Positions 8,601-51,409 of a stretch of 64,000 nt of DNA are shown piece by piece (the stretch's first letter is position 1; the number at the start of each line of letters is the position of its first letter). A model generated the notes under the pieces. It worked only from the letters and a program-made list of their open reading frames with translations. It was not told the origin of the DNA and ran no database searches. The stretch is from Ditylenchus dipsaci. Its lineage: Eukaryota; Nematoda; Chromadorea; Rhabditida; Anguinidae. The translations under genes and the position numbers were made by a program. Location of the stretch: assembly GCA_004194705.1 (NCBI GenBank), contig SADC01000215.1, positions 108,738-172,737 of the forward strand. Reading direction: 5' to 3'.

Positions 8601-11600
8601 AGCCTTTGTGCCTATTTCTGAGAGAATGCCTCCTGATTGTGGTGCTAAAATAAAGGTGGCTTTGCCAGGCCAAAGAGATGGATCTCCTCATTCAGGTGAG
8701 TCTTTATTGACTTGGTGTGGTGTTGGTGCATGGAAATTATTTGGAATTTAAGGCAGCTTTCGAGGAAGACAGTCGTCAATGTCATGGAGCGACTTCTACG
8801 AGACTATGGCTGGTCAACAACAGGTTGGAAAAAATTTGAAAAAGTTGCGGCAAGTCTGCAGTGGAATTTCCGAATAGTTCACCCTGGGGGTAATCGAAAA
8901 TCGACTATATATAGGAAGGACCCCTGAAAAACGAATTGAAATAATCGAAAACCAGAAACTAAGGTACAGCCCGTTCATGAACCGGTAATTCTCGATTTAC
9001 ACTGTAATCCACACATCTCTAAATCTCCGGAAACCCTCAAACTAATACAAAATTAGTTAGAGCTCCCGTTCTGTGTGGTATATAAAGCGCCTGCAGATAA
9101 TTTTTTTTGACTGACTTAGGATAAACACTTACTCATCTTGAGCCAGATTTTACCCCCTTGACAACTGTATGTTAATAACTGTAGACTTTCTCGTAGAATA
9201 TATGAGAAATTTTTATTCTAATCTGACTCAGGATGAGTAGCTGCTTTTCCTGAGTCAGAAAAAAGCCATGGGACAGAAAAAATTCAAAAAATTTAAAAGG
9301 CCAAAAGTCAGAAATTAAAAAAAGTTGATTTGAAAGCGCTTTATATTATGTCGAAACAATATTTTCCCTATTTTCCCTGCGGTGCGGGCCGTCTACCTAC
9401 CCGGCAGTGAAGATGAATCTGGCCCAAAGAACAGGGGAGATAGAAAATTATGTTTCTGACATCATGTACCAGACAGGGATGAGCATTTTGCCTTTTTAAA
9501 AATAAAAAAGTGCAAAAATTTTGCCCTTTTTTTGCCCTAAAAGACAATTTTTGTTTTTCATGCAAATCGCCGTTTTAGGGCCATTTGCCTAAAAAGTGCA
9601 ATTCGCCTTGCAAAAATTGCCTTTTGGGGCAAAAAAGAGCAAATTTTTTGCCCTTTTCAATGTACAAAAGCAAAATGTTCATCCCTTATACCAAAGACTG
9701 AGTCAATCTGCACTTACAGAATCTAGAAATCACGTCAGGACAATAAATGATCATGGTTTAAAAGTTTCAGAAACTTTTTGACCGTTTTATTTTTGGTTAT
9801 TTGAGACTTTAACTAATGATATACGGTGCGTAGCCTTTTGGCCCTTTTCCCATTTGGGAAAAAAGGGGCCAAACGCCTTAATAAGGCGTTTGGCCCCTTT
9901 TTTCCCGAATTTCAAATTTTTTATGTGGCGCCATTTCAAACTCGTCATAATTTTGTTATTTAGTGTGGATAATAAATTTGTACAGTGGGGCCTTGATGCT
10001 TTCATTGTTTTTTCTCGATGATAGGCATGCTCCCAAAACGGACTGCCAACCGATTCGTTACAAAAACTGATTCGTTACACCGATTCGTTACACTGACGAT
10101 TCGTTACACCGATTCGTTACATTGACGATTCGTTACACCGATTCGTTACAGAAAAAATATTTTTTTGACCAAAAATCGACTTTTTGACTTGGGGACCAAG
10201 GTAAACCACCTGGATACCGTTTTTATTCATTAAAAAGGTATTATTTTACCTGCCTGCCTTCGGCAGGCACCCTAATTCAATAGGAAGCCCTTTGGGGGTA
10301 CATGGTCCGGGATAAGGGCTGACCCTTCGGGGTACATTGTCCGGGCCAAGGGCTGACCCTTTGATTGCTCATAATAGAAGGTGGTTTACCTTGGTCCTCC
10401 AAGGCAAAAAGTCGATTTTTGGTCAAAAAAATATTTTTCTGTAACGAATCGGTGTAACGAATCGTCAATGTAACGAATCGGTGTAACGAATCGTCAGTGT
10501 AACGAATCGGTGTAACGAATCGTCAGTGTAACGAATCGGTGTAACGAATCAGTTTTTGTAACGAATCGGTTGTATACCCCCAAAACGCCCTGGTCCCATG
10601 TTTTTTGCCTCGGTACCCTGTTGATTTTTTTGGGAGCACCCGATTCTGCACTAGAACCGGCATGAAGATGTCGGAACAAAAATAAAAGCGGTGGCCAGTG
10701 TTTTTCTTTTCGGAACGGATGAAGTTGCTGTAGCCTTCATTTGTTTTTTCGTATAGTATCAAAAGAACTGAATAAGACCAAAAAACTTTATTCCTTTAAC
10801 CATAACATATCAATTCAAGCAAACATAATACCAACCATAATATCAATAACAAAGAGGTTATAAACGGAAATGTCCTATTCTTTCATTTCTTGTCTGACAT
10901 CTAAACAAGAACAAACACTGGAGACATAGTGACCATTATCAAAATTAGGGCTGATGACTTTAATATTCCGCTCCACTCTCAATTTTTTTAAGATACGAAT
11001 TTCCGAAAGAATACACACTAGGTTGCCGAATTATCAAGGCGCCAGTGTTCAAATTGATTATCCACACTAAATAACAAAATTATGACGAGTTTGAAATGGC
11101 GCCACATAAAAAATTTGAAATTCGGGAAAAAAGGGGCCAAACGCCTTATTAAGGCGTTTGGCCCCTTTTTCCCAAATGGGAAAAAGGGGCCAAACGCCTC
11201 TACGCGGATATTACGTCATTTATAAGTAGACTTTTTAATTATCGAAAATGCTATGAAATTCATATGTGTGCATGCGTGTGCTTATTTCAATTAACAAGGG
11301 AGGGACCCTGACTGTGACCTGGGAAATTCTTATTCTGCGTATTCTTGTAAAGCGTAGCCAAATCCCCTGTAAATCTGGTTCCCCAACTATGAAAACTAAC
11401 AAAATTTTCAGGAATGACCCATGGCCCATGGGTCGGTTATAAAAAAACCATGATATGGGTATTGAGGTGTTTTTAGAACTTTGAGTAACCCTTGTACCAT
11501 ATTTTGTGGACCTTTAGATCTGGGGAGCCATATTCGTCAAGAAATTGGGCATGCTCCACTAGTATTCACAGAAAAAATTTCATCGAAGTTGCCCCAGGTC

Positions 11601-14600
11601 ACAGTCCGGGTCCTTTCCTTGAAAATAAATTCGATTTTTTTCTTAATTTTCTTTTGGATGCAAATTTAATAGCAAAACTGCAAAATTTCATTATCCAATT
11701 GCAAATAATATTAACTTTCTTCCCCCAACTAATTAATCCGCAGCAACTAATTGGCCATATATATGAAAGAAGTCCAATGAATTATTAATCTGCAAGACTA
11801 ACTAAAATAATTATACTTTTCAAGCCAATTATTTTTTGCCCTAGTAAACCGTTAAATTAATGTTAGGTACAATGCGCAGAGTTGAATGAGCAGTCCAAAG
11901 ACCAGGACTTGCTGGAAACAAATCCAGCCTATGCCTATAAAGCACCCCCTAAACCTGTGGTCAACAGAAGATCTTCGGTGGAGTGGGAGAACTTTGAAGA
12001 GGCTCGACAGCTGCAACAAGAAACCACTGACAATAATAAATACTGCTATGAAGAAGACACTAGGCCTTGGGATGGCAATAATGACCAACTAGACTGTCAA
12101 CAACAAACAGCGAGCCCTCCAGCCGACTGGGAGTCTAATCCGGCTGATTTTGGTAGTAGATTTCATTATTTTTAAAAATTAAGCGATTATAAACCTGTTT
12201 TCTCCGAAAGTTGGAAAACTTAAAATTTGGAAAAAACCCCAAAAAATCTTTTATCCCTACTGAGTTTTACAGATGGGGATATTTTATTTTGCTAAAAAGC
12301 TGAGAACTCCGTCTAAATTTATACATTTCTACTGGGTAAACCTTGGTTTCCGCAATAGGTGCAAGTTCTTTTAACTACATTTTCTGAATTTTTGCAGAAA
12401 AAAAATGTGGCCTTTTTCGTAACCCCTCACTCGGAAATAACCATAACTTTTTTCTCTCCTTGAAAATTTTGTAGTTATAGTCATCTTGTAGCTAAGGAAC
12501 AGAGCTACTAAATAAGTTACAGGTTTAATCAATGCTATTTAAAAAGAAAAGTTTGATAAAAATGAGTGGATTCGCACTCTGGAGACGCTACGCACACACG
12601 CGGCGCGGATCCGAGTTTAACTCCAGAGTGCAGATCCTCTCGATTTCATCCACAGTTTCAAGCCAATACCTACTTTATCAAAACCTAATTTTGTAGCCCT
12701 GTTCCTAAGCTACAAGATGACTACAACTGCAAAGTTTTTCAATGGACGAAAAAATTTTATGGTTATTTCTGAGTGAGGAGGTATGAAAAGAGGCACTCTC
12801 ATTCATCAATGAATTGGCACCTTTTAATCACCCGATTTCTTTTATTGAAAAAACTCTGCTGTGCAAATCTAAAGCATTTCCCTGCAGTAGAAATAAAACC
12901 TGGCTTTTCAACTCCCATTCCAAAAAAAACTAAAAACAAATAAAGCAAGACAAATTTCAGGCATCCAGACCAATACCCCCTTTGCATAACCATCCCTACA
13001 TATAGCATGTAATCCCCTTCATGCCTCTAAAATCAATAGAGCTGCTGCTGCTTTCCAAAAACAAACAGGAAGCAAGCACCTAGCCATTTGCTAGTGCCAC
13101 TCACACACACCCATCCAGTTAGCTAGCTAGTAAACTTAGTTGGCAGCCACCCCTTTTCTTTTTAGTGGATCTGAGAGTGGCATGAAGGCCAAAACTTCTA
13201 CTTCTTTTTACTTAAGAACAGCAGCGACTCTGGTCATATAGGGAAGTGGTGTGTCTTGCCCCTAGCTTTGACGTAGAGTTCTCAGGCCTTTGTGTTTTCT
13301 TAACCCCCAGTTTCTAGGGCTGGTGTTGGTGGACATCAATTTGTGCGAGTGGTATCGGAAAATTGATTCCACTGGTGTTTTAGTCAAATAATGGCAGTGG
13401 ATAAAGCTGGGCGTTGCTTCTTATGTGCTAATATTGCGTGGAATTGATGTTTTTTATTGATTTTTGTGGTTTAGTTGTGGATGCATTGAGTGAGAACCAT
13501 TTATCAGAGGATCAACCTTGTTCAAGTGACATGTATTCGGGTGATGGTACTGGAAATGACACATCTTCTGCTAGTAATCCATTTGCGGTGCCACAACAAG
13601 AGGTAGGAGTTTTTGAGCCGAATAGTTAAAAAAAATTAATATTTTTGAAAAAACAACTGTAAAATGACCATAATGGGGCGTCCGTCCTCCGGCCACGTCC
13701 CGTCCCGTCCGCATAGTCTTACAATTGGCCCATCAAATCTGTACGATCTACTTTTTAGAACATCAACTACCTTGTTCTGATGCAAAAAACATATCGACCG
13801 TCCTTGTCCGTTTATTTTGGTAGTCGACCGGCCGCTACCGTCCGAAAAAAATGTCTTTTCGAAAAAGGACAATTTCAGGACGGTGGAGGCCGGTCGATTC
13901 AAAAAGGTGGACGGGCATGGACGATCGCTTTGTTTTTGGCACTAGAAGATGTTAGTTTATGTTCTAGAAAGTAGACCGTCCATATTTGTTGAGCCAATTG
14001 CTAGACCGTCCGGACGGGGACGGGCCCGGCCGCACGGCGTCGGACGGGCGCCCCACTATGAAAATGACTATTCCAATTTTTCACAAATTCGTTCATTTTG
14101 ACAAGCGGAACGAAACAAAATCAGGATTCATTTACAACTCTTTTTGATATATTTTATTGGAAAACAGTACGCTATTTTTCGGCTTGGTCCAATAGTTGAT
14201 TTTTTAAATTTCTATTTTTATGTCTCGTTTTTCGCAATTTTATTCTACGTCAGCCAACAACAACATCTTTAATTGATAATAGAATTGAAATTTTAAAAAA
14301 AAATCAACAGGGAAGCAAGGCGAAAAAGAGGTGGCAAGTTTCATAGGAACGAAGATATTATCCGCAAATTTCCTAGATGTATCACTTCTCCCTCAATTAT
14401 CAATTGGCATTGAAATCTCCAAACAGTTATATAAAAACTGTAAAGTTTAAACCAAAGAAGTTTGTTACACCGATTGACGGGAATAAAGATTAGCTAAAGA
14501 AAACGTCTTTATTAAAATTACTTTCATCAAAATAAAATTAAAAAGCTATTTCAGAATCCCTTTGTTGACCCATCCTCCGCTCCTGCTATAGCCCCAACCA

Positions 14601-17600
14601 GAGTTGCACCTCCTCCTCCGCCTGGCCAACCACCAGCTGCCTACTATCAACCACCAGCCTCAGACCCTTATGCTTGGGGAGACACCAGCACCACTTCAAC
14701 AACAGCAGATCTGTCTAACCCCTATTACTCCAATACCCAATACTCCAACATTTACTCCGGGTATGACCAGGACGCCCCTTCCACTCAAGACCACTCTCAG
14801 CCTTATGACCAGGACCAACTAAACCAGGTGGTTCCTACAGTTGATGACTACAGTTATGCCTCCAATCCTTACAGTCAACCAGATGCATACAACCAGTATG
14901 GAGGTGAGGCTGCCTACGACCCCTATGCTCAATATGGTGCTCAACCAGCTGGTTATGAAGCGACTGACACTTATCCCAGCCAGCCAGAAGCCAACCAGTA
15001 TAATGATGTGGATTATACAGCTCCTTATGAAGGCTACTCAGATGCTTATGTGGGATATGAGCAAAACACCCAAGTTGATATCACTGGCTACGAACAAGCC
15101 ATCCCTGGCTATGAACAAGCTCCCCAAGTGGACATCACGGGCACTGATGCCTACGGTACTTCATTTGAGTATAACCAAGAATATAGAGCAGGAACTGAGC
15201 CATCTGTGGCTGCTGTTGCCACCACATTTCTAAGTCAGCCTATACTACCTCCACAAAGGTCAAGAACACCAGACCCATTCTCGTGGGAGGTCCAGGAGAC
15301 GGCTTACGAACAACATGGAAGTGCAGTGGCACCACCACCTAGGCCTGCTCCACCCATAACTCCGAGCAGATCACCGGAACCTGGTTTTGGAGGTTCAGAT
15401 AATCTAACTGCTGGAGCACTGAGTCCTAGTGGAGAGGAGCAGATGAGTAGTGTAATAGGATCAAGCAAATGTAAATTTTCGAATATATTGGAAAAAATGT
15501 TGTGAATATAAACATGCTCGTAAACCACTAAGTAATTATTTTTAAGTTTTGAGTAAAAAATTTTTACAAGAGCAGGGGTAGAAATGAAAATCATCGAAAA
15601 AAGTGTCTGGGTAGGAAAGTATTGCAGTTCTACAAGTATTGTACTGTCGGAAAAGTTCGGAAAAGACCCAAACGCACGAACATCTTTCTGATAGGTTCCA
15701 AAAAATTGATTTCCAAATTTTTCTGTATACCGTAAATTTCTTATTAGACGGCCCCTCTCTAATAAACGGCCTCCTCAAAAACCTATATCTCAGCCTAAAA
15801 AAACAATTTTTTAAATCGGTTTTCAACATTTTCTTAGTTACCATGAGTTTACCTGATTCCAGTTTTCAGATTTTCGTTGAGCACCCAAAAATTTTAAAAT
15901 CGACCCAAAAATTTTCCGAATTTTTTCGGGGTTGAAAATAGACGGCCCGGGCCATCTAATAGGAAATTTACGGTATGTATGCAGGGATGAGCTTTTGTAA
16001 CTATTTGCGGGAAATAGTTACAAATTTTTGCATTTGAAAAATAGTTACAGCCTGTAACTATTCTTGTAACTATTTCTCGCCACGAAAGTAATAATTTAAA
16101 AAAAAAAGTTATTCAGAATTGACATGTAATCGTAAAATTTTAGATAAAAATGACCAGTCTGACACTGAGTCTGACATTCAGTCTGAGTGTCCGATTTAGT
16201 GTCAGACTCAGTGTCAGACTGGTCATTTTATCTAAAATTTTACGATTACATGTCAATTCTGAATGGCTCATATTGAATCCCTGAATCTCAGCTACAAAAT
16301 GATACTAACAGAATTTTTTTTTCGCAATCAAGAAAAAAATTACAGCGAAAAGGAAGCCGGGTCGCGCACTCAGTCCCAGACCCATTGTGAAAGCGGCTTA
16401 ACTATTTTTGTCTTCGCTATGGTTTCGAATCGCGAAAAATCGACTGAGGGGATCAGAATTCCAATCAGATGGGCTTAATCGCTCAGAAACTTAGTTTAGG
16501 GTGGTTTAAAGTGGACTAACGTGCAATTCTGAGCGATTAAGCCCATCTGATTGGAATTCTGATCCGCTCAGTCGATTTTTCGCAACAAGTTTACCCCCCC
16601 CTTTAGTAAACCCCCAAAAACAATTATTTTTGGCTTTTGGCCGTTCTGGATCGGGTCCTAAGCCATCTGGTTTTTGCCTAGCCTGAAATTTTTACAAAAT
16701 TGACCAAATTTAATTTAAAAAATTTAACTGCTGATTTCGTGCCGAGAAACCACAGCGAAGACAAAAATAGTTACACGCTGTAACTATTTTTTTAAAATTA
16801 TTACTTTCGTGGCGAGAAATAGTTACAAGAATAGTTACAAAGGTCAAAATAGTTACAGGCTGTAACTATTTTTCAAATGCAAAAATTTGTAACTATTTCC
16901 CGCAAATAGTTACAAAAGCTCATCCCTGTATGTATGTTCTTATAAAGGAATATGTCGTATTTACTCTAATCATCCTCCCCAAATTGTAGATTTAGAAAAA
17001 ATGAATTTATTTTTTTTAAATATTTAAAATTTAAAATTATTTAAAACAAATATCGTTTCAGGACAAAAAAATTTCAAACATATTTTTTAACTTATGAAAA
17101 AACAACAGGGGGACCAAGCTGTTTTTTGGCACCGGACTCTCTACTAGAACCATTTATTTTGGGATAAAATTACTTTCAAAGTCGAAAAAGTTCTTTTGGA
17201 TTTATTAATCTGTAAGGGATGCCTTCTAAACTTGTGCAGCAACTACATTTAGCTCCTCCACCACCCCGTCCCGGAGCTCCACCTCCTCGCCCAGCAGCCC
17301 CTTCTCCTTCACCTGTGCGACCTCCACCGCCATCACTATCTGGTTCACCATTTGGTGATAGAAGAGTTGCCGAACAGGCAGCTGCCCAAAAGAAGCAAGA
17401 AGAAGAGGAAGAAGACCCGTGGGCCAAGTTTAAGCAAATGACCGAGCAAGTGTCGAGTGTGGTCAACAAGACCACCCAACAGTTGAGCAAGTTAAGTGAA
17501 AACAGTGCTGCTGATGACATTGTTGATGAAAGCTATGTTGCTCAAGTGGGGTGAGTATCCTTTCCATATTCTTATTTAAAAATCCCTCTTTTTCAGAGGC

Positions 17601-20600
17601 AACCAAGGCTTCCAGCTCAATTCAGCCCAGAAGCAGATCCTCCAAATGCAGGAAGACCAAAAGAAGCAGAAAGCAGACAAGAAGAAGAGGGGAAAACGAC
17701 CCCTTCACCCACCTATGACCCAAATAGGGATCAGGACTTAGAAAAAGCGGCCGCTGAATTGGTCCGCCAAATGCAGAGCACTAGAGCTGATCTGGCGGTA
17801 AGTTTACTTAAATGAGAGTGTGAAATCTGCCAAGATCCCGAATAATATGGTTAGGTATATGGTCGGCCACGACCCGACCCTAACTTAAATGAACGACTTA
17901 CGACTCGGTACAACAAATGACTTGTACAAATCTGTCTGATTTTCGGAAATTTGAGTTGAAAGCTCTGCGTATATCCCACTTAAGATGTATATCCTATTAG
18001 GATACTTGGATAGTTATTTTAGTATATTTGAAACATTTTAATTAGGACACCTTTCTCAATCCTGCCTAGAGACCAGAGGGATATATCGTGATTCCCTTGT
18101 ACCTAGAGTGCGTTTTGTAGATCCTTCCCCTCTGGGGACCAGTTTCAGCTGTTTCGTCCTCCGAGACGTTTAATTCTCAGTTATTATCCTAAAGCTGTTA
18201 TACAGACAGGTAGCAGTAAATTATGCTCAGGTAAATTCTTCCTCCACTAAATTCACCCGGCGGTGAATTTACCCTCTAGAAAATTACCCGCTGTAATTTT
18301 ACTCTCCATAACGTACATAAACTTGAGGTTACAGGTTCAAATCCTAATGTTAGTAACATCTTTTTTCTGAAATATCAGTCACAACTAATTTATAAAACCA
18401 AAACTATCTATTACCTCCCTTAAATGGGTATCCGCATCCAAAATCCGAATAATTGGATTTAGCTAAAAGTATTTAAAATTTTTACAAAATTTCATAAAAT
18501 CGTTTTGGGAACACGGCTTGATAATACTAAAATAATAATTTAATTTGTCGTACAAACTAGAGTTGCCCGGAATTCCGGTTACGGTTTCCCGGAATTCCGG
18601 TCTTTTTTCGGATTCCGGTTCCGGTCGTGAAAAAATATGTAATTCCGGTTCCGGTTTTCATAAAACTAAAATTCCGGTTCCGGTCCAAATATAAATTCCG
18701 AGCCCAACTGTATCAAAATTTTTCTCTTGCTCGGCTGATTTTTAACGCGTATTTTCATTTTTTGAACGAATTTTTCGTGTTAAATATTAATATATACAAA
18801 AAATCATGTAAATGGGCAGCGATTTTTTCGAAAACTTTTTTTTTCGACTCCTGTTTTTGTTTTGGGAAAAGTGAAATTCCGGTTCCGATTCCGGTTTCTA
18901 CAAAAATCAAATTCCGGTTCCGGTTTTCAGATATCTAAATATTCTGGTTCCGGTTTTTACAAATATAAAATTCCGGTTCCGGTCCAAATATCGATTCCGA
19001 GCCAACTCTAGTACAAACCCTACCGAGTCGTAAAAACACTAGTTTTGGAGTAGTTCCGTATCCTGTAGGGTATCCAGGTGGTGCTGGAGTGTACCTAGGC
19101 ACCTAATGCTGCTACTTAGGTATTAGTAACGAGGTAGTATAATAATACAGTCAAACCTCGGTTATCCGGCACTCCAGTTATTTGGCACCTCGTTTATACG
19201 GCACCCTGAGGCCAGTCCCCAGGGGTGCCGAATAACCGAGGTTTTACTGTACCGACTTAGGTGGATGGATATATCTGGAGAGAATGGATACCTCGTGTGA
19301 ATAGATTTCCAGGTAGGTAGGTGAAAGTAAGAAAAATAACTGTTTCATTCCATTCAAATCCATATCCGGGAACAAGTGGTGCAAATTTTCGAGGGTGAGT
19401 TCAGTCGATATGGTACAAGAAGGAGTAAATTCGGTACAAAAAATTAAATTTAGTATAAAAATCTGTAAAAATTGTATCGACTCGTTGTACCGAGTCGTAG
19501 GTTTTACTGACTCGTTGTACCCAATCGTACGTTGTACCGAGTCGTTGTACCGCGTCATACTTGTAACGAGTCCGTGTACCGAGTCATTTGTTGTACCGAG
19601 TCGTTGCTATACCACTTAAATGAATTCAAAGAAAATGTTTTTGAAAGAATTTGAAAAATTTGTAGGATTGGAAACCACCATCCGACTCCCAGTTTGCGGC
19701 TCAAGAACAAGAATCCAGTCCTGAGCCTACTATAGAACAAAAGGAATCTGTAAAGCATATTGAACAAACTGAGAAATTCGCAGATTTTTCCAAAGAAGAG
19801 CTAAAAGAGGAGTCCCCAGCACCGACACCTAACAATTGGGCTGGTTTTGGAGATGACTCAGGCCCAGTACTCCCTTCTTCAGACTCGGACTTTTTCCAAA
19901 AAGCACTGGCTGAAAGGGTCAAAGCAACAGCTAATCTGGATGGATTTGATAGGGACGAGACCATGATTGGAGATGCGTTTAGAAATGCTGCTGCAGTTGA
20001 TCCTTTTGCGCCGATTTCGGAGCCTTCGTTGATTAATGAGGTGAGGAATTTTCTAGGTTAGATTTAAATTTTTAAGATGACCTGATTGAAAGTTTTGAAA
20101 TTAGTCTGCCGAAAATAAACCAGAATGACATTTCGTGCACTTAATTCGACCGTTTTTCGGTTTTTAACCGGATAGATGAGAATATAATAAATAATAATAA
20201 ATCATGATACGATTTTATCTTTTCAGCATGATAGTTCGCGGCTCTGGAAATTCATTGTAGGTCAACCCCTAGGTCATACCAAATATGTACCGGCTGCCTG
20301 CATTATAAAAAACCCTATACAAGCTGCTACTGAATTTATCCACAATCGATTTATCGACAACGATTTAACAGATAAATGGCCGCTAGCTTCATATATGTAT
20401 CCTTCGCACAATTGTCTCCCTAACACAGCGATTAGTACAAAGACTCAAATTTGACCATGGGCGCACATCTCATTAATCAAAAATGAGAAATGCTTTTTTG
20501 TCTGCCTTTCTGTCGGTAAAAACGTTGTCGACAAATGACTTCTTCTTGTCGTAAGGCTGTTTGCTTTGTGGTCAGTCGTCAAAAAGATGTACACACAACA

Positions 20601-23600: not shown

Positions 23601-26600
23601 CATAAATTTCAATAAAGATGAAAAACGTTGGGGGGAGGGGGGGGTATTCGCCAATAGGGTCAAACGCATAATAGAAACTTGCCAATCTGTAGTGATCTTC
23701 GGTCTCTTTCAAGAAAAACCTCTCGAAATTATCTTCATAATACGCTCTTGATTCGATTCCCAGCGCCATCAGCATTTTTACAATTGATTTGATGATACCC
23801 CTGGCCATTGAAATAGTTATTCGAGGGCAATCTTAATAGCCAAACCAAAACTCACCACTGAATAGATTGGCCATGTCTCTCCGACGAAATCATACTCAGC
23901 AAGGTAAGTTGTATCTGTTCATTCACGACGTGAACACAACTGACTTCAGTTCGAAACATGGAAAGAGCCGACTGATATACGCTAAGCATGCCAGGTTGGA
24001 TGTAAACACTAGAAAACATTGAATGGAGTTAGCCAGAGAGTCGATGAAAAATGCGACCAAAACTCACCGGTCCAGATACCTAAAAAGTACCGTTGAATGC
24101 AAAGATTTTAACTCATTACTAAACTGCCCACATAAGAATGTCGCGGATCATTCCAAGCATGGTTGAATACTCATTCCAGAATCGACAGAGAATTTCGAGG
24201 AAATTGCCGCTTGCATCAACGCAGCGCAAAAGCTCTGGCACAACCTAAGACAAAAAAATAATTGCAGGTGTAAACAACACATACGAAATTCCTCACTGTT
24301 TCAGTAAGATGCTGCTTCGTAAGTTTCTGATAGGCATCAAGTAACAAGTCGCCATGTTTCTCACAAACCTTAAAATTGACATTATTTTTTACTAAAAATT
24401 CAACTCTTGCTACTGACCAACGTGTAGGAGCTTCGGTAAAGCACTTCGAAACTTAGACTTGAATGCTGTTTGGATTGAATTGCAACAATTGCTTGTTTGA
24501 TCTTCTCAAACATCTCGGCATGCTTCTCATTATTGATTGTCTAAGAATTTGAATGAAAAGAAAAAAGTAATACGGAATATAAATTGTTACTGAGAGTGAC
24601 TGTTGATGTCTCTGCATTTTTTTATCTAAATAAATTCAAATAGGAAATAAACAGTGATAAATTTAAGCATTCGATTACAAAAAAATCGATAAGCGGTGTC
24701 TATCAAGATAGGTCCACAGTCTTGAAAAGACCCACGGCTTTGCAAAACATGAAAAAAAGTTTTACTTCGAAAAAATTAAGAGCGTTAATTTTAGATGGTT
24801 GAGGAATAAATCTCTGTTGATATTCTCGCCGTTCTCTGTTCATTTACAGTCAGCCCTTGATAAATCGGCACCTTTGAGGTTATAAGATTTGTTTACAGGG
24901 TGTCCCAAAATAGGCAAAACTTTTTATTGTCGCCGAATGACTTTTTTCCGTCGCCGAAATACTTTTTCCTGGATCAGGACATTTCGCCCCCAGTACGTTT
25001 CGCCCCCGAGCCCATTTCGCCCTCGGCCGTTTCGCCCCCGGCCGTTTCGCCCTCGACCGTTTCGCCCCCGCCGACATTTCGCCCACATAATATTTTATAT
25101 TAAATTCCTTCATCTCTTTTTTATCTTTTTATTCCTATGCTGTGTGGAATAACAAAGGCTTTTTGGTGCTACTTGCATATGTCCCTCCTCGCCACCATCA
25201 AATAAACTTTCTTTTAAATGTTCTCAAACATCCTATATCGATCTAAAATGGCATAAGAAGCTCAAAAAAGACATTATTTCTGAGTACTGGTCAATAAAAA
25301 AATTGATTTTTGGGACCACCCAAAATTACCCATTTTGACCATTTTTGAATGGATTTAGGTCTGTATTTGGGTAGAATGGGCCCAATTTCAAACAAAAAGG
25401 AGGATGTTGAAGATAGTTTTCAATATGGGGGCCTACCGCATAAATAAACTCTGTTATGCATGCTTTTTCATGCATCCAGAGTCACTTTCAAGTGATTAGC
25501 GTTTAAGGTATGTGGGTGTGCGCATCTCGACCCCAAGCAACAAAACACCCCCAGCAAACCCCAAGCACACATGGTAAAACAGCTAAAAAGTCGAAATCAT
25601 GTGCGATAATGCACTTTTTTAAAAATGGAAAAGTTAAAAATCTAATGGGGGCGAAATGTCGGCGGGGCGAAACGGTCGGGGGCGAAATGTCCTGGGGGCG
25701 AAACGGGCTCGAGGGCGAAACGTTCTGGGGGCGAAACGTCGCGCACCCCTTTTTCTTGTCGCCGAAAGTTGTTCTCGACACGAAATCAGGAATTTTTGAA
25801 TTTTTGTGTAAAATTCAGGTGATGGGAAAGACCCGTGGTGCGCAAAACAGATAAATTTATCTGAACCGATAAATTTATCTGCCAGATAAATTTTTATCTG
25901 TCAGATAGAATTTGTTTGCCAGATAAAATTTTATCTGATAGATAAAATTTATCGGTCAGATAAAATTTGATTTTTAAATAAAAATCATTAGAAAATTAAA
26001 AAATGGGTTTCACAGTTGCAAATTTATGGAAATTTTTAAGAATAATAGTGACTGAAATATTTGATGGGTTTTGCCAGAAATCCTGGCTGAAAATTTGAAA
26101 ACCCATCAACTATTTTAATCACTATCATTCTTAAAAATTTCTATAGATTTGCAAGTGTGGAACCCATTATTTATTTTTTTAATAATTTTTGTTAAACATC
26201 GAATTTTATCTGAGCGATAAAATTTTATCTGGCAGATAAATTTTATCTGTCAGATAAAATTGTATCTGGCAGATAAATTTATCGGTTCAGATAAATTTAT
26301 CTGTTTTGCGCACCACGGAAAGACCAGATGGCTCACGACCCACTCCGGAATGGTTACTACTCATATGGCCGCAACTCATTTGGCCGCACTCATTTGGCCG
26401 CAACTCATTTGGCCGCAATTCATTTAACCGCACCTCATTTGGCCGCCATTTCGCATTTTTATAAGAAAATTACCACTGCCATTAATTTTGACCTTTTATT
26501 GGCGAGAGGTAGTTAAGTCATTAACTAAAGGCTATTCCTACCCCGTTTTGGTCACTGGAGCTGGGCAAAAAGAGCTCTAAATGCATTTTTGTTCAAGAGT

Positions 26601-32600: not shown

Positions 32601-35600
32601 TATACTGAGGGTCCGCGACAATTGACCGCCTGGTCTGTTTGACCCCCGTGGCTTTTTGACTACTTACACGCTGAAACCGATAAAGACGTTGTTTCCGACC
32701 ACTTTCCATCGAAAATTTTGACTTTTCTAGATTTTATACCTGTCTGCCTTCGACAGGCAACCTAATTCAATAGGAAGCCCCTTTGGGGTACATGGTCCGG
32801 GATAAGGGCTGACCCTTTGGGGTACATGGTACGGGATAATGGCTGACCCTTTTATGACCCACATAGCTTTTTCTTGGTGCAGCACCAGTAAGCTTTCAAA
32901 CTATCATGGTTATACGTCATTTTCTTCTTCGCTTGAATAGTCGCTGAGTTCGTTAACGATTAGGCGCACGAGTTCTATATTAGCATCTATCAGATTGCTA
33001 AATTTTATATTTATAGTAAATATCGATGTTCAAAGAAAAAAAGTGTAAAGTGTATCCAATCGATGTATCCAATCGATGGCGTATCCAATCGATGTATCCA
33101 ATCGATGGCGTATCCAATCGATGGTGTATCCAATCGATGGTGTATCCAATCACTTTTTGTATCCAATCGATGGTATACCAATACGAACTGGAGATGGGTT
33201 CCAAAATAAAAATTTAATTAGTATAATGGTTGTTCACGTTGTGAGAGTTAGAGTTCGAGTTAGAGTTAGAGTTCGGGATTTTGGTTACGTGAACACCTCT
33301 GATCCTAACTCTAACTCTAACTCGAACTCAAACTCTAACTCGAGGGTGTTCATGTACCTAGAGTTAGAGTTAGAGTTCGAGGTTGGATTTGAAGGTGTTC
33401 ATGCATATAACTTGGATTTTATTTTAGTAAACCTCCTAAAAACTAACTTTCAGTGGCTTTAGACGGCTTTGGAGTGAGATTCTGAGCTATCTAAGCTATA
33501 TACATGAACATTTTCAAGCTCGACCTCTAACTCGATGTACGTGAACACCATCGAGTTAGAGTTAGAGTTTGAGTTCGGGTTTTCGAGTACATGAACACCT
33601 CTTACCCGAACTCTAACTCTAACTCGAACTCAAACTCTAACTCGAACTCTAACTCTTACTCTAACAACGTGAACAAGCCATAACCGAAATTTTTTTTTGA
33701 TTTGTCGTTCGAAATTTGATTTTAAAACCTATCAAAAAATTTTGCTTAAATTTTACGAATATAATTTGTTTCTGGAACCCATCTGTCAATTTTTCGATAG
33801 ATTATATTGGCAAAAGCTTATGAAACCCATGCAAACACTTATTGAGTTATGTATAAACAACCGCCAACTTGTGGACCGGCCGAATACTTTTCACCTTTCT
33901 CTCGCATTACTTGAAAAAATTCAATTTTTCACAAATCGCCTTATTTTGAGCTTCAAATACATTTGGCGTTAAATGCAGATAACAAAAAAATTCTTCTTTT
34001 CCCTATAGTTTAGACCCCGTATATACCTCGAAGTCTAAATGGTTGCTAGCCAAATCACAGAGGGACCAAGCAAAAATCCTGTTTTTGACATAAATAAATT
34101 TAGGGATACAGGACAGTCGAATGCCATTTTTTGAAATCGCTTCATGGGAAAATTTATGTCCGTTTAAATTCAGGCACATTTTTTGACGCACCACATAGAT
34201 CAAACATCACTGTCAGATTTATCACTTTCCATCAAAAACAGCCGGGTTTTCAGTTTTTACAGCATTGATTCAAAATGCATAAATTTTGATCTCTGCTTAC
34301 GTAAATCTCGAAAATTATTTTTATAATATTTTTGCAGATGCCGTTTCGAACTTTCCTCCTTCGATTTGATGCCAGAAACATTCTTGCCCAGCTCCCATGT
34401 AGAGTTCACAATGCCGTTGGCAACCATCAGTAATACTGTGGTGCGCTCTGTGGGTGTGGAACAGCATGAGGACAGTGATCGGGTGGAGAAGGTTAGCCAC
34501 TTTTCAGAAAATATTATATTAACAAGCCTTTTTCAGTTTGTTCGGTATGTAGCCAAGTGCCACCATGTAGTGGATATTGACTATGTGCAGTGTAATGACT
34601 TGGATGATGTTGAGACTTCGACCTTTGCCCAATCCGCTGCATTGGAAGGATCCGGACCTGAGGCTGTGCCTCAACATGTTCCTGCATTCGAGCCTAATGA
34701 TGTACAATCGCAGCACATGGGGTAGGTACTTGTTTTTGAGTTCAAAAAAAATTTATGGGAATTGAGTAGAGACGAAACCAGCTAGACGGTTTAAATATAT
34801 CTCTACAAGGGGTAACAGGCGCCTATCGACGCTTTCATGGTGTTTTTACTTATCAAAGATTGTGAATTAAAACGGAGATTGTACACGAAAATCCACCAAA
34901 CTCCAGACCAAACTCCCCCACTACCAATTTGGAAGGCAAGGAAAACTTTTTTCAAAAGTAAATTCAATTATACGTGTTTATGCCTAGAAAAAAGCTAAAA
35001 TTCTGTACTTGAGTGTTTTGAAAAGATTTCGGACATATGTTTGCAAAACACATCAGAAAATTAGGTTTGAACACGAAAATCCACCCTAAATCCTGGCTAA
35101 AATCCACCACCTCTAATTTGGATTGCAGGAAAACTTTTTTAAAGCAACTTCAATTATTCGTGTTTGTGCTAAAAAGAAGTCTAAGATGCTGTACTTGAGT
35201 GTTTTGAAAAGATTTTGGACATGTTCGCAAACACATCAGAAAGTTAGGTTTGAACACGAAAATCAACCCTAAATCCAGGCTAAAACCCACCACCTCCGAT
35301 TTGGAGGGCAAGGAAAGTTTTATTTAAAAGCAACTTAAATTATACGCATTTGTGCTTAAAAGAAAGCTACGATGTTTTACTTGAGCGTTCCGGATAGAAT
35401 CCAATATAAGTTTGCGAAAAAAAGGCTGAAAATCGGGTTGGAAACCTATAGCTTCAGAAATAGCGTGAAAAAGATTTGTACCACTCCCAATGTCTGTAAA
35501 AAGGTGTGAACCACCCACCCACCCACACATGATAAATACTATATGAAGATATAGTATTTGGACTATTTTTATCCGTTAGTCACGTTTTCGGTAAATCGGA

Positions 35601-40287: not shown

Positions 40288-41182
40288 GGCTTGTTCACGT
40301 TGTTCGAGTTAGAGTTCGATCTAGAGTAGGGATGGAACCCGACCCGACCCGAAGTCGGGTTTTAACCCGACCCGACCCGATTTTGGGCTTGAAACCCGAC
40401 CCGAAACCCGACCCGACAATTTCCGAAAACCCGAAACCCGAACCCGACTTTGAAATCAGACAAAACCCGACCCGAAACCCGACCCGACATATAAAGCTCA
40501 ACCCGAAAAACCCGTGGCAATTTCGTTATATTTCGTTGATTGATTTCGTTATATTTTGTCAATTTTGTTGATTGTGTTTGGTTCATTATTGCGTTATTAT
40601 TCTTCTTATATTCACTGCACTTCCAGGTCGCTATTCGGAATGTCATCCTCAATCTGGGCTCATTTTACAAAGAATCGAGTGGATGGAAATGCTACGTGTC
40701 ATCACTGCTGATCTGACGAAGAATAAACAATGTTATTTCGATGATTCCTTTTCTTGTTTTGATTGTCCTTGTCCTAAATTCAAAAATAGATAGTTGAACA
40801 AGCTTCTGATTTGCAATTCTTACCCTTTTAGCCCCGCAAAAAAATGAAGACATTTTTAAGGCAATCGATTTAAAGTCCGCTCGATTTAGGGTCCCATTTT
40901 GGTCGGTTTGACCCGACTCACAACCCGAAGTTTTTTACGAACCCGACCCGAAACCCGACCCGAGAAATTCCAAAAACCCGTAACCCGACCCGAAACCCGA
41001 AATACTATGACGATAAACCCGAAACCCGACCCGACATTTACAAGTTCGCCAAAACCCGACCCGACAATGTCGGGTCGGGTCGGGTTCCATCCCTAATCTA
41101 GAGTTAGAGTTCGGGTAAGAGGTGTTAACGTACTCAAAAAGCCGAACTCTAACTCTAATTCGAACAACGTGAACAAGCCATA
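40288..41182. mobile_element. Harbinger-like word foldback split by a hAT element
   Basis: Left end TGGCTTGTTCACGTTGTTCG with GAGTTAGAGTTCG; the right end is its complement, reached after GTAAGAGGTGTTAACG. It is the same family as 33227-33680. The sequence is interrupted at ATCTAGAG by the 40327-41095 element. It starts about 110 bp upstream of the DTWD1 ATG. Confidence 0.75.
40327..41095. mobile_element. hAT-like word foldback (ACCCGACCCGAA), exact 8-bp TSD
   Basis: The duplication ATCTAGAG lies at 40319-40326 and 41096-41103. Ends TAGGGATGGAACCCGACCC and its complement. Arms are dense ACCCGACCCGAAACCCG arrays; the interior of about 330 bp is unrelated AT-rich DNA. Confidence 0.92.
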
Positions 41183-41784: not shown

Positions 41785-41799
41785 CGGGTTCCAAAAAAC

Positions 41800-42168: not shown

Positions 42169-42246
42169 TGTGTTCCGAAACTCAAGCTCAAGGTCAAACT
42201 CAAGGTAAACCTTGAGTTTGACCTTGAGCTTGAGTTTCGGAAACAC
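42169..42246. mobile_element. Very short hAT-like hairpin element
   Basis: About 78 bp, almost perfectly self-complementary: TGTTCCGAAACTCAAGCTCA pairs with its complement, ending GGAAACACTG (inverted CAGTGTTTCC). The flanks AGGCGGGG and AACCGGGG match 6 of 8. Confidence 0.6.
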
Positions 42247-46225: not shown

Positions 46226-46227
46226 AA

Positions 46228-46562: not shown

Positions 46563-47300
46563 TCTTTCCGATTTTAAGGGAGGCTGCGCCGCTCTTTCTT
46601 TAACGTGTTTCTAATTAATTTTCATGATAAAACTTAATGATTGTCATTCCGCAAACGTGATCTTTATCCAATAACATTCAGCTTTTATTTTGAACAGCTA
46701 TTTTCATTGATGGTTTCAAAGAAGATTTCGTTTTCGTTATCAGAGTGGCGGCCTTCTTATTTTTTTTTCTTCCTGCCATCTCGACCTAGTTCTTATTTCT
46801 GATCTTGCAAAAAATTTCCAGGCTCTTTGATTGACCTAGCTGGTTTGAAGCACGCTATTTGTGTATCTTCTGATCCTCATCGAGGACGCAAACTTAGTAA
46901 CTGCGTTGAAATATTGAGATTTACCTTCGGACGATTTGACAATTTTATCCATTCTAAGGCGACCTCAAATGCTGGGACCTTTGGATTGCCGTGAATCGCA
47001 TCCGTAAATTCGATAAAGGAAATGAATACTGGGTAATGTACCAAAATGATGTGAACCAAACAAACCACTTAATTCTGTGTTCTTAGCATTTGCACTTCTA
47101 GGTTCATAACAAATGACATCTGGATGAAAGAAAAATATGTCATCGTTATTATCAATAAACAATAAACCACAAAAAACCTGTTCAACTATTGCGATTGCTA
47201 TATCACTAACAATGTTTACGAAATAATAATACTGGCGTTGCGTAGAGTTGAGAGAGTAAGCGTACGCCAGTGGCCGCGTACGGCTTTTGTACAGGCTTGG
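46563..47300. other. No gene assigned
   Basis: Minus-strand frames of 63 and 128 codons overlap between 46877 and 47351 and read partly protein-like (FTDAIHGNPKVPAFEVALEW). They switch frame at about 47050 and match no family I know. Confidence 0.35.
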
Positions 47301-47371
47301 GAAAAAGTGCGATCCCACGATATACTCCTTGCGAGTCGGCGCTCTAAACAATTGAGCTATCGGGTCGCCCC
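47301..47371 (-). ncRNA. tRNA-derived relic (degenerate)
   Basis: On the minus strand GATAGCTCAATTGTTTAGAG gives a good D-arm and A box. Then come GCCGACTCGCAAGGAGT and GTGGGATCGCAC where a T-arm should be. The anticodon stem and the 3' half of acceptor and T stems do not pair. It is a tRNA pseudogene or the head of a tRNA-derived SINE. Confidence 0.35.
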
Positions 47372-48130
47372 AGGCCTGTTTCTTATTTTTCTGCTATCTG
47401 CCTCCCTTACAAGAGACTCGGCATCGATACCAGAAGCGACGAGAAGAAATGGTGGGCAAGGTTCTTGCTTTGGCTGTGTGAAGTCGCTTTTTGGATTTCA
47501 AGTAGCTTTGTGGATTTATAAAAATTCGCACAGAAAAAAAACTAATGAAAAATAAGCAAAAAGTGAGGCGAAAAGCAAGACGTCAAGTACACGCGAGACA
47601 AATTCGAAGAAATTCCATAAATTAGAATTATAATCTTTTAAAATAAAAATTTTCAGAAATTTCCGGCGCCTTTGCCAAAGAGGTTGAAATATAATCCCCA
47701 CCCTCCGAGGAGGGTTGATTAATAATCCCAGTGGAGGATTAAAAGAGGTTATACGGTAGTTTGCATTCGGCATTTTCCTCGTTTTTCATTTTGCCAAATG
47801 GTAGGAAGATCGCACCCATTTTTACCCATATTATGTGGTCGAAGGCTTAAGCCCCCAAGGTGCATAACATATTTATTTTTTTAGTTCACTATTTAAGTTC
47901 ATTCACTTCTTGGACCAAAAACTATCGAGGAATCGATTGGAATTATTTCCAGCACTGCTTTACTATCAGCAAATACCCTAATTTTGGGATTTCATGCAAA
48001 ATATACACAGACGTGTGTAGGATGGCATGCAATTGGACATTATTGGATTTTTTTCAATTCCAACTCTCAGTAAATATTAATTTCTCTTTTTCGATAGCTT
48101 AAATAAAAGTCTCACATTTTAGCACATGAA
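47372..48130. other. No gene seen
   Basis: Includes the CCCCACCCTCCGAGGAGGG half-copy at 47690-47757. Otherwise AT-rich with no recognised feature. Confidence 0.45.
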
Positions 48131-48493
48131 ATTGTGACCAGTGTTGTTCCAGCGCCGGGATCGGCGCCGGCGCCAGCGCCGGCGCCGACCCTTTCTGAAA
48201 AAAGGTCCCAGCGCCAGCGCCGAGCGCCTCCCTAAAAATTTTTGGCTCCGGCGCCAGCGCCGTCGCCGACCTCTTTTGAAAAAATGCCCCAGCGCCGGCG
48301 CCGGCGCTCATGGCAGCGCCGACGCCGGCTTGATAATTTTGCTTTTGCTGTAAATTTCATGAAAAATTCCTATTTTTCAACAGTATGTTTTTTACAGTGA
48401 AAGTGATAATAATTATTTGTTATCTATAACGCTTAGCAGCATACCGTTTATATTTCCTCTATTAATTCCTCATGATAAGTGAATTTTGAAATA

Positions 48494-48996
48494 CAGGGTG
48501 TCTTAAAAAATCCGCAGAATTCGAGATGGCTATAACTTTTCCTAGAACGAATTTCTGTTTTCACTAATCGTTTTCTCTTGACGGGCAATTTCGTTAAATG
48601 TATAATGTTAAAAGTATGATTTTCGCTTGGTCCCCCTGTGGTTTCGGGTTTTACCATCTAGGAACCACCCACAGAGGGACCACAAAGGGACCAAGCGAAA
48701 ATCGTATTTTTGACATTATACACCAAATGAATTGCCCGTCAAGAGAAAATGGTTGAAGAAAACAGAAATTAGAAATTCGGTCTCGAAAACAAGTTACCGT
48801 ATTTTCTCTATTAATGCACCCGGGTTCATTATTTTCAACCCTTCAAAAATGTTGAAATTGTGAATAAAAAATGGCCCTAACTCTGAAATCCTAGTCAAAG
48901 AATCGAGGGGGGGGGTTCATTATTAGAGAGGGGTTCATTAATAGAGAAAATACGGTATATCCATTTCAAATCCTGTGGATTTCTCGAAACACCCTG
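48494..48996. mobile_element. Mariner-end foldback nested in 48139-49415
   Basis: TA-flanked ends CAGGGTGTCTTAAAAAATCC and, inverted, CAGGGTGTTTCGAGAAATCC. Arms share TGACGGGCAATTTCGTTAAA and AAGTATGATTTTCGCTTGG; the loop centre has two inverted copies of the GGTCCC motif. The 48797 element sits in its right arm. Confidence 0.82.
48797..48955. mobile_element. TACCGTATT-family MITE, third nesting level
   Basis: Ends CCGTATTTTCTCTATTAATG and its complement, TA on both sides. Inner word is GGTTCATTATT. 159 bp. Confidence 0.75.
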
Positions 48997-49899
48997 TATT
49001 TTCCTTATGCTGAGAAATAAGTCCATATGAGGTGGAGTTATTAGAGAAAGGGAAGTTCATGAAAGGAATAGGTTATATAAGTTTTGTGAAAATAAAAGTT
49101 GTGTGAATTAGTTTTTTAACAATAGCATATGATACCCTGGTTATGTTACAAAAAGAAACTAAAAAATTAAAGAAAATAAATAAAGAAATGAAAGAAATTG
49201 CAGCACAAAAGAGCTGATAATTTAGTTTAAAATTAAGAATAATTGTCTTTCTCAATATTAGGCTGTTAAATTTTAGAAACAGCGCCGGGGCCAGCGCTGG
49301 GACAAAAATTTTTAGCGCCGGCGCCGACCAAAATTTTCATTGGCCCAAGCGCCGGCGCCGAGCGCCAGCCCGGCGCTGTTTTTTCCCGGGCAGCGCCGGC
49401 GCCGGAACAACACTGATTGTGACCTGTAGGACAAAAACTCAGAAAATATTAGTTAAACCCGAAAAATCGATTTCCGGCGATTCAACAGGCTTTAGCCTGT
49501 AAATCAGCTCTGGTATGGGTTAGACTTTTCTATGATGATTTTGTTGGATATCCAACAATGTGAGGATCATTTTGACATCAAACTTATGAATAAAAAACAT
49601 GAAAAAATTAGGCCAGCAGCCTCCAGATCTAATTTTCGGATCTAGGTGAAGGTAATTGAAAACCATTATACTCTTCCAGAATCGAGTTTTGAAGACTAAG
49701 TTTTGTATCCTGGAGCATATCCAGGTTGTGCTCAAGCTTTTTACCTAGGTCATCATGGTTTTTTAGTCAAAATTTGAAAAATTTGAATTGGCGCCTTTTG
49801 AATTTTAAAGGGATAAGGCTGTATAGAGAGGGGAAGGGAATAAAAGAGGGCCACTTTTATGGCAGAACATCAGAAATTCAAATGTTTGTATTCTTCGAT

Positions 49900-51026
49900 G
49901 GGACACGGACGTTTGTGTCTAAAACCGTTTGTGTCTAAGGCCGTTTGTGTCTAAACCGTTTGTGTCTAAACCGTTTGTGTCTAAGGCCGTTTGTGTCTAA
50001 TTTTTTAGATAAGCTAATTCATTTTATTGATTTTTTCATCATTAAACCACAGTCAACCCCTAACATAGTGACACTTTGTGACACCTTTAATATAGTGACA
50101 CTTTATTCTCGGCTAACAAACAGGTGTTGGTACTCAGATAATGGTCCTCAGGCAGCTATTCCCGAATGGTCCCACTTTGGTGCTGGTACTCATGTAATGG
50201 TATTCTGGGGCGTTAAGCGAATCAATCCACATCCCGTATTGGTCCATACACGAATTGATCCATACTTTTAAAATTCGGGCATTGAGAATTTTTTTTGTCT
50301 GAACCAACCTAACCAGGCGGTCGTCCACTTGGAGCAACTTTTTTTTTGAATTTTTGGGTATTAGAACCTGTTTTCTGGATCAACTCGGGCATGCTGAGAA
50401 TGGTTTGATAGTGGTAAAATGGCGTTTCGTCAAGTATTTTTTTGGTTTTAGGAGATAATTGATTTTACAAAAACTCGATTATACCGAAACTCAAAAAATA
50501 CCCTACAAAACGGTATTCTAACAATATCAAACCAAATTCAGCACGTCCAGATTAGTCCAGAAAATAAAGTTTGGAACTTGAAAAACGAAAAAAAATTTTG
50601 ATCCAAGTGGACGACCACTTGGCTTAGTTGGTTCTGACTTGAAATATAAATTCCCACAAAATTTTTGTTTGGAGTAGTTTTGGATGGTTTCGAGTGGTTT
50701 TTTTGTTGGTTTTAAGTGTGTTGGGTACTTTTAGTTGGGTTTGGAGGTTTTGGGTGTCTTGAGGTGGTTTTGAGTGGTTTAGGTGGTTCAGACACATTCT
50801 AAAATTTTTCGAAAAAACAACAAGGGGGACCAAAGCAACTTTTGAATAAAAAAATTGACGAAACGTCTATTTACCGTAATTCACATTGCGAGGGTGAGGG
50901 GTAGGAGTGCACAATACAAATGAATTAGGTTATGTAAAAAATTAGACACAAACGGTTTAGACACAAACGGTTTAGACACAAACGGCCTTAGACACAAACG
51001 GTTTTAGACACAAACGGGGTGTACCC
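49900..51026. mobile_element. MULE-like word foldback (GTTTGTGTCTAA), exact 9-bp TSD
   Basis: The duplication TTCTTCGAT lies at 49891-49899 and 51027-51035. The ends are GGGACACGGACGTTTGTGTC and, inverted, GGGTACACCCCGTTTGTGTC. Six to seven GTTTGTGTCTAA words stand at the left end and five at the right. The interior holds a piece of pogo-like sequence (50049-50110) and a foldback at about 50280-50640. Confidence 0.88.
50280..50640. mobile_element. Foldback with GGTCGTCCACTTGG arms
   Basis: Ends TCTGAACCAACCTAACCAGG and the inverted complement AGAACCAACTAAGCC. The inner arms GTCGTCCACTTGGAGCAA and AAAACTCGATTATACC pair with partners. A second copy is at 54515-54852. Confidence 0.75.
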
Positions 51027-51409
51027 TTCTTCGATTGCCTCACCATCTTTTCAACTGGGCCATGGCAAAAAAGACTCTATATGCATTTTTGATCAAGAGT
51101 ACTTCTCGGAATCATGTCTAAGGTAAGTGTGTGCGCGCATCTCTAACTCTCAAGCCCCCTTGCGCCCCCGAAGGGGGCGCAGGGGGCTTGGAGTTGAGAT
51201 GCGCACACCCACATACCTTAGACACAAATCACTCGAAAGTGACTTTGTATGCATGAAAAAGCATGCATACCAGAGTTCATTTATGCGGTAGGCCCCAGTA
51301 TTCAAAACTATGTTCAACATCTTCTTGTTAGTGGGCCCTGTGTGATTAGTGGCCCCCTTTTATTCCCTTACCCTCCCTATACAGCCCTTAATCCTGATTC
51401 TATAGTCAA

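Follow-up and report, generated by a model that had tools for sequence, protein, structure and literature searches.

Across the genome of the plant-parasitic nematode Ditylenchus dipsaci (227 Mb, 1359 contigs), foldback-type transposons carry the same short terminus in front of many different tandemly repeated words. The species is borne out by a D. dipsaci protein that aligns with contig C923 at 93 and 98% over two exons and by a protein search in which all six matches came from D. dipsaci. The starting point was a stretch of 64,000 nucleotides (contig C215, positions 108738 to 172737; hereafter the window), in which inverted ends lead into facing arrays of a short word. The elements belong to two known classes of cut-and-paste DNA transposons; their inverted ends are long and internally repetitive, and most of them lack their own transposase. 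One terminus precedes many words, some of them in many copies, the word arrays flank transposase genes, and the copies within an array are alike. Comparison of the loci suggests that the word follows the transposase and that the FLYWCH finger of the latter is less conserved than its catalytic domain. From these sequence data, the words are probably arrays of transposase-binding sites, which are replaced en bloc and diverge together with the finger, the cleavage ends remaining fixed.

Two terminus patterns with a free word centre were searched genome-wide, with the reversed pattern as control. The family-A pattern GGGACACGGNCGTTTNNNNNNNAA matched at 116 places (control 0), and the pattern of family D, with its GGTATA terminus (GGTATANNANCGANNNNNNACA), at 344 (control 5). 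Words were read in the first 100 matches listed for each pattern; since each pattern prescribes some positions of the word, the scan sees only words built on that skeleton, and the first array copy alone was read. Behind the family-A terminus, 26 distinct words were found, seven of them in two or more copies. CCCTGTA (32 copies), GTGTCTA (27), and GATCGAA (13) made up 72 of the 100, and the other 28 were spread over 23 words, four of which had two or three copies. Family D yielded 25 words, 13 of them multi-copy and accounting for 88 of the 100 copies; with the family-D pattern one base longer, six copies of a shorter variant were matched. The constancy of the ends under a changing word, raised in an earlier sequence-only reading of the window, thus holds genome-wide. 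Where both arrays were read (L031, L044, L045, and window element 49900), the rest of the array agreed with its first copy. Copies within one element were 83–93% alike (four family-A loci; L032 with four copies only), and five family-A words had a mean likeness of 73% (range 57–93%).

The multi-copy words of family D are mostly tied to one terminal micro-variant: CTCGGT followed GGTATAGCAA in 17 of 17 copies, CTCGAT followed GGTATACCAA in 17 of 19, and CTGGAT followed GGTATACCAC in 6 of 6. Because the common words mostly hold one terminus micro-variant and related transposases have related words, drift by descent is favored. Drift and swapping between lineages had both been offered earlier as the origin of the words; the former gains support from the terminus variants and the related words, and no clear case of the latter was seen, although no tree-based test was made. 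Words that were exchanged between families via recombination or nested insertion would be conceivable given the arrays nested in arrays (a pair of a 21-bp word in the left array of L030) and the few D words with more than one terminal variant. However, most multi-copy D words have a single terminal variant and each family has a common word skeleton, and we regard such exchange as highly improbable.

The MULE (Mutator-like element) transposase domain PF10551 has at least 115 matches in the genome. Thirteen MULE loci were fetched, chosen by score and long open frame and thus not random; L044 and L045 were fetched separately and deliberately, for a family-A end near a MULE match. At nine of the 13 loci (L029–L032, L034–L038), the transposase is flanked on either side by inward-facing arrays of a single word. 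An array was present on one side within the stretch at L039, L040, and L041, and at L033 the left and right arrays consist of different words. At L044 and L045, the transposase lies between arrays of the word of window element 49900, in both cases with the GGGACACGG end; at L045, the opposite end GGGTACACC and an exact duplication, GCCGTAATC, are present as well. Transposases whose own element carries the word, for which the sequence-only reading had proposed to search, therefore exist.

The 9-bp elements are MULE foldbacks of the kind of Tm1 (Meloidogyne) and Muta (Aedes), and the composite end, a short terminal motif plus a tandem 13–16 bp word, is present in the MULE elements here. Family A has the ends GGGACACGG and GGGTAC, with GGGCCACGG in L032 and no left terminus remaining in L037. 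Its words are CGTTTGTTCGAAAAGTT (L029, L036), CGTTTGATCGAAAAC (L031), CGTTTGACCTTAAAGC (L032), CGTTTCCCCTAAAAGTT (L037), CGTTTGTGTCTAAAAC (window 49900, L044, L045), and CGTTTCCCCTCAAAGTT at position 106510 of the comparison sample, a contiguous 200 kb of contig C1105. The GGGACACGG-type end lies 5′ of the transposase in six of seven loci (L029, L032, L036, L037, L044, L045; GGGCCACGG in L032), and L031 is reversed. Family B ends in GGCTGTAC or one-base variants and has the words TTTCGTAACAGCTTCA (L030), TTTCGTAACAGGTTCA (L038), TTTGGTAAAAGGCACA (L035/L039), and TTTGGTACTTGGTCA (sample 40352). Inside the left word array of L030, at positions 431–598 and 1335–1483, a facing pair of the 21-bp word ATTTACGCCCTCAAATTACTC was observed, apparently a foldback inserted in the array of another foldback. 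Family C, with the end GGGTACAY (read at L034 and L040), includes the words GACAAAATTTGCCC and GACAAAATTCTACCGC. In family D, the ends are GACTGC and GGTATACC or close to these; three of its window elements are flanked by exact 9-bp duplications, and the words are CGATTCGTTACA, CGATTGGATACA, and CGACTCGGTACA in the window and CGACCGGGTACA at sample 116833. The element at sample 117299 (word CGATTGGTGACA, exact duplication GAACTGGAG) belongs to family D by its word alone, its ends GGTAAAATC and GGACAACTATC being different.

Exact 8- or 9-bp target-site duplications (TSDs) flank the MULE elements L030, L031, L035, L036, L038, L045, sample 40352 and 117299, and five window elements. Inexact duplications were found at L029, L032, and sample 116833, and none was seen in the flanks read at L034 and window 24971. 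All four family-B elements that were read, three of which contain a MULE transposase, have a TSD of 8 bp. TSD length was therefore rejected as a divider between hAT and Mutator.

The similarity of the catalytic domains (pairwise identity over 67 columns, 13 domains of this genome) was compared with that of the words, which were hand-written and compared under free rotation, L033 being represented by its chosen right-hand array. The two were correlated (Mantel r 0.66, P 5e-5, 13 loci), also in a non-redundant set without L036, L038, and L039 (r 0.48, P 7e-4, 10 loci) and when the words were replaced by 5-letter array profiles (r 0.57, P 7e-4, nine two-sided loci). Co-divergence of word and transposase is supported by these comparisons, but not settled. 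In family A, an N-terminal FLYWCH finger (PF04500) scored above the Pfam cut-off in L029, L031, and L032 and was partial and below the cut-off in L037. Between L029 and five loci with other words, the finger was 36–47% identical, the catalytic domain 63–68%, and the C-terminal part 66–76%; between L029 and L036, which share a word, the values were 88%, 94%, and 93%, respectively. The fingers of L044 and L045, again with one word, are identical over the aligned stretch, and L031 and L036 share 35% in the finger and 62% in the catalytic domain. The FLYWCH finger is thus a likely candidate for the reader of the word.

A different function of the words would be to bind host factors or to serve hairpins or silencing, their change reflecting escape from host recognition and not transposase specificity. 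Long MULE inverted ends have been tied to small RNAs (PMC6446971), and a host protein could be the one that binds the words. On the other hand, word similarity tracks transposase similarity (more weakly with 5-letter profiles), which host factors do not predict, and loci with the same word have like fingers, as in L029/L036 and L044/L045. We consider a host-factor role unlikely.

Several points weigh against the interpretation of the words as binding sites that diverge together with the transposase. Terminal variants are common to several words, GGTATACCAA also standing before CCGGGT, TCAGAT, and CTGGGT, and CCGGAT (three copies) and CCAGGT (two copies) have a different terminal variant each time. 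Many singleton words may be mutated copies of common words, and words outside the pattern skeletons or beyond the first array copy escape the terminus scan. The words of L029 and L031 differ by one base in 14, which is within the spread of copies inside one array. A network of words connected by single mutations was no better than column shuffles for family D (P 0.25) and weakly so for family A (P 0.016); as proof of stepwise drift it was dropped, being not discriminating for D and weak for A. The strong Mantel test rests on hand-written words and selected MULE loci, and with 5-letter profiles without L036 and L038 the correlation decreased to r 0.25 (P 0.09, seven loci). No transposase was linked to family D, and Pfam did not find FLYWCH in two family-B pieces. 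With L031 as query, the finger was 41–60% and the catalytic domain 63–73% identical in the five loci besides L036, and the gap between L031 and L032 was small (60 vs 63%); a generally faster change of the N-terminus would give the same picture. In the test of the array period described below, both arms of one element were scored as two arrays, so that the cases are not independent.

Whether the duplications exceed chance was assessed in the window and the C1105 sample (264 kb together) by a scan for exact, non-palindromic 8-bp repeats adjoining 10-bp inverted ends with one mismatch allowed; in the controls, the right end was read backwards or complemented. The scan gave 36 matches (14 in the window, 22 in the sample), the controls 0 and 1. 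Corresponding scans for 7, 9, and 10 bp gave 11, 8, and 5 matches, compared to 9 and 3, 6 and 1, and 4 and 0 in the controls. The 9-bp count was near the control, from which it follows that the asymmetric 9-bp ends are missed by the scan. A 7-bp TSD is typical of the P superfamily, to which Galileo belongs; here, in contrast, no clear 7-bp excess was found. The 36 matches are not all word elements and not all hAT, several being long hairpins or nested matches. Eleven of them (window 18550, 25826, 36986, 40319, and 48131; sample 9585, 51320, 57448, 59548, 130239, and 136715) combine hAT-like ends with a repeated six-letter word common to both ends, a degree of sharing that no more than 1 of 300 random window pairs attained. 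Three further matches with hAT-like ends (13661, 62470, and 78815) also share a word, to a degree that 1 or 2 of 300 random pairs attained, the shared six letters at 78815 being merely ATTTTT, and a few matches without hAT-like ends also score for a shared word.

Among 30 inverted pairs in which both arms carry arrays, 11 were flanked by exact direct repeats of 8 bp or longer (shuffled mean 1.15, maximum 5 in 200 shuffles), at least one of which (24975) is not a clean TSD. The corresponding numbers were 5 of 21 pairs with a one-arm array (shuffled 0.8) and 9 of 52 array-free pairs (shuffled 1.43), indicating that duplications mark inverted repeats here generally and those with arrays most. Of the ten elements for which the sequence-only reading had named word arrays and TSDs, nine showed exact 8- or 9-bp duplications; at the exception, 33227, none was seen. 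On reading flanks, the GAGTTAGAGTTCG family to which it belongs had no 8- or 9-bp TSD either there or at 40291–41176, the sole further complete copy among the sequences examined. Exact duplications also flank window elements 13669, 17892, 18558, and 36994, which were not among the ten. Among eight fetched copies of the 40327 family (window copy included), six had both full ends, and all six were flanked by exact, differing 8-bp TSDs.

Arrays with a period of 14–17 bp were concentrated in inverted pairs (23 of 46 arrays vs 4 of 45 outside such pairs in these sequences, Fisher P 2e-5; in the C1105 sample alone 14 of 26 vs 4 of 34, P 6e-4). A census of 128 arrays, which includes the loci chosen for their MULE, counted 50 arrays at 14–17 bp and a second peak of 18 arrays at 21 bp. 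In B-DNA, 15–16 bp correspond to about 1.5 turns and 21 bp to about two turns, and we infer that the array period reflects protein spacing. These results bear on the possibility that the words simply arose as microsatellites expanding through slippage in old miniature inverted-repeat transposable elements (MITEs), with no role in mobility, which the sequence-only reading had named as the outcome that would speak against it. The copy number does differ between the two ends, and several hAT words are simple. However, identical combinations of word and terminus recur at dozens of sites, the six copies of the 40327 family have six different TSDs, transposases are flanked by word arrays, and the 14–17 bp period is a feature of inverted pairs. 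For the MULE families, microsatellite growth is largely refuted by the terminus scans, the TSDs, and the period, and overall we regard it as very unlikely.

The 8-bp elements mostly look like hAT transposons. Their first bases, CAGTGTTGT, TAGGGATGG, TAGAGATGG, and CAGGGCTG, match the hAT terminal pattern (YAGNGNTG-like ends). For the hAT dimerization domain Dimer_Tnp_hAT (PF05699), 150 genome matches were listed and two loci, picked for long frames, were fetched. In both, terminal inverted repeats (TIRs), word arrays, and an exact 8-bp TSD enclose a hAT transposase: L042 has the TIR TAGAGATGGAGG, the word CGGGA, and the TSD ATTAAGAC, and L043 the TIR TAGGCTTGGGCG, the word AATCCC, and the TSD GTTGTATT. 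The ends and word of L042 recur in sample element 9585. Behind the first nine bases CAGTGTTGT, three different shared words were found in the 264 kb, namely GGCGCC (window 48139), GGCACC (sample 51320), and TTCCTC (sample 101318), the last being weakly repeated (level reached by 75 of 300 random pairs).

The MULE ends are bipartite. Outermost, adjoining the TSD, lies the short terminal motif (GGGTAC../GGGACACGG, GGCTGTAC, or GGTATACC/GACTGC), near-fixed per lineage group and presumably read by the catalytic domain. Behind it lies the inward array, with a word every 15–16 bp or so that differs between lineages. The finger may bind the word with one monomer per repeat, about 1.5 helical turns apart, and the many weak sites could recruit a multimer. 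A new word variant might then spread through both arrays by unequal exchange, conversion, or slippage, and the joint divergence of finger and word would split one family into mutually private families. The hAT elements may follow the same scheme, with words of mostly 5–10 bp behind YAGNGNTG-like ends; there, a BED finger would be the probable word reader.

The comparison with known systems covers the open-access PubMed Central literature as represented by titles, abstract openings, and text passages. Tm1, a Mutator/Foldback element of Meloidogyne, has mostly 9-bp TSDs, asymmetric 7-bp terminal motifs, composite ends with the 13–15 bp tandem word CGATTCAGTATCCGC, FLYWCH and a MULE transposase, and many MITE-like copies (PMC3169594). 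Its host is likewise a plant-parasitic nematode, the plan of TSD, end, and transposase is the same, and its word begins like CGATTC of family D; in contrast to the one consensus word described there (PMC3169594), 13 multi-copy words stand behind one terminus among the 100 family-D copies listed here, and the words appear to go with transposase clades. In Muta1–14 of Aedes aegypti, which belong to the Phantom group, 9–15 bp repeats occur in 10 of 12 families with long TIRs (PMC5225508, PMC6446971). Their TSDs measure 8–9 bp, Muta1 moves in yeast, and its terminal motif is an imperfect palindrome, a form shared by GGGTACACCC here (PMC5225508); in the passages covered, words are compared neither with one another behind one unchanging end nor with DNA-binding domains (PMC5225508, PMC6446971). 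The THAP finger of the Galileo transposase binds repeats in the long ends, long ends occur in different superfamilies, and Galileo and Foldback of Drosophila resemble the present elements in their long, internally repetitive ends with zinc-finger (THAP) sites (PMC3688188). Subterminal repeats have been called a defining feature of hAT elements in a study on Tgf2, which shares the short TIR, the many subterminal repeats, and the 8-bp TSD (PMC4890040); here, in contrast, the arrays are dense and facing, and differing words stand behind the same CAGTGTTGT. A 2026 paper on arthropod MULEs suggests that long TIRs provide multiple cooperative binding sites and describes G/C-rich first bases (PMC13359780). 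A survey of transposable elements in plant-parasitic nematodes lists D. dipsaci; its main text contains MULE once and none of the terms tandem, subterminal, and Mutator (PMC11118728). No report of many array words behind one constant terminus was found in the literature covered. The architecture, which had been thought undescribed, thus has precedents in nematodes and is not confined to a single superfamily. New relative to the open-access literature covered is that, within a single genome, a constant terminus precedes dozens of words and the words go with the lineages of the transposase.

Table 1. Elements with word arrays in the window (positions in the window; TSD, target-site duplication)
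Position	Type	Ends or TIR	Word	TSD	Remarks
10041–10578	family D, MULE-type foldback	GACTGC / GGTATAC	CGATTCGTTACA	CCCAAAACG (9 bp)	MULE by ends and TSD, without linked transposase
13669–14060	hAT-like	CATAATGGGGCG / CATAGTGGGGCG	CCGTCC	AAAATGAC (exact)	
15982–16928	hAT-type	CAGGGATGAGC	AATAGTTACA	TATGTATG (8 bp)	
17892–19613	family D		CGACTCGGTACA	ACTTAAATG (9 bp)	array at right end only; hAT element 18558–19010 inside
18558–19010	hAT-type	TAGAGTTG	ATTCCGGTTCCGG	GTACAAAC (exact)	within 17892 element
24971–25747	foldback	GGATCAGGAC / GGTGCGCGAC	(G)ACATTTCGCCCCC	exact TSD absent on reading flanks	
25834–26317	hAT-like	CGTGGTGCGC	AGATAAATTTATCT	GAAAGACC (8 bp)	
26352–26916	foldback	GGTTAC / CGTACA	AACTCATTTGGCCGC	CTCCGGAAT (9 bp)	
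26957–29029 (−)			AATTTGCTGGTGAAATTCAGA (21 bp)	looked for, none found	facing arrays around broken MULE-related transposase
32257–33179	family D		CGATTGGATACA	AATACGAAC (9 bp)	
33230–33676	further foldback family	TTGTTCACGT	GAGTTAGAGTTCG		inverted arrays; 33227 in the sequence-only reading
36994–37129	hAT-type	TAGGGTTGG	GGTAATTACC	GATTTGAC (exact)	
37299–37838	hAT-type	CAGTGTTT / CAGTTTTT	GTCATT	CTCAGGAC (8 bp)	
40327–41095	hAT	TAGGGATGGAACC	ACCCG	ATCTAGAG (8 bp)	nested in 40291–41176 element
48139–49415	hAT	CAGTGTTGTTCC	GGCGCC	ATTGTGAC (8 bp)	
49900–51026	family A, MULE foldback	GGGACACGG / GGGTACACC	CGTTTGTGTCTAAAAC	TTCTTCGAT (9 bp)	relatives with transposase and same word: L044, L045

The broken transposase within 26957–29029 matched a D. 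dipsaci PF10551 protein at 55%, the PF10551 profile itself giving an E value of 0.14; in tblastn searches it had no real match to other MULEs, and with the fetched transposases as queries no MULE transposase was detected within any other element of the window. The interiors of two family-D elements contain a 34-bp repeat (GGGGTACATGGTCCGGGATAAGGGCTGACCC..) that includes a short hairpin (10240–10375 and 32740–32860), which recurs once in the window outside them, at 63430–63540. This repeat is dispersed genome-wide (767 first-look candidates, 40 scored, 59 matches), and its presence in both the 10041 and the 32257 interior was for this reason rejected as a sign of word swapping. Facing pairs of TACAGGGTGTCYY-like ends enclose other elements (24894–24906 with 29107–29118, and 48492–48504 with 48987–48998) and resemble, judged by eye, TA-inserting (Tc1/mariner-like) transposons. 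The window also contains a long palindrome at 3080–3935 (approximately 855 bp, 78% match to its own reverse complement) and, at 53306–53929, a minisatellite of approximately 16 copies of a 38-bp unit in a minus-strand open frame.

More tentatively, the array words may be regarded as serially replaced "locks," block homogenization allowing finger and sites to switch specificity while the catalytic terminus stays fixed; we consider this possible rather than probable. If it is true, one family would become dozens of mutually private ones within one genome, and the switch would provide an escape from cross-mobilization by the copies of parasites or from repressors, comparable to satellite or PRDM9-type turnover. 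Family A (CGTTT......AAA) and family D (CGA......ACA) would then represent natural libraries of finger variants and their sites. If the words are binding sites, D. dipsaci would offer tens of natural pairs of zinc finger and DNA site in a near-constant catalytic background in one genome. One could then test directly how a transposase changes its specificity jointly with hundreds of its sites, and read from sequence which DNA code the FLYWCH finger uses.

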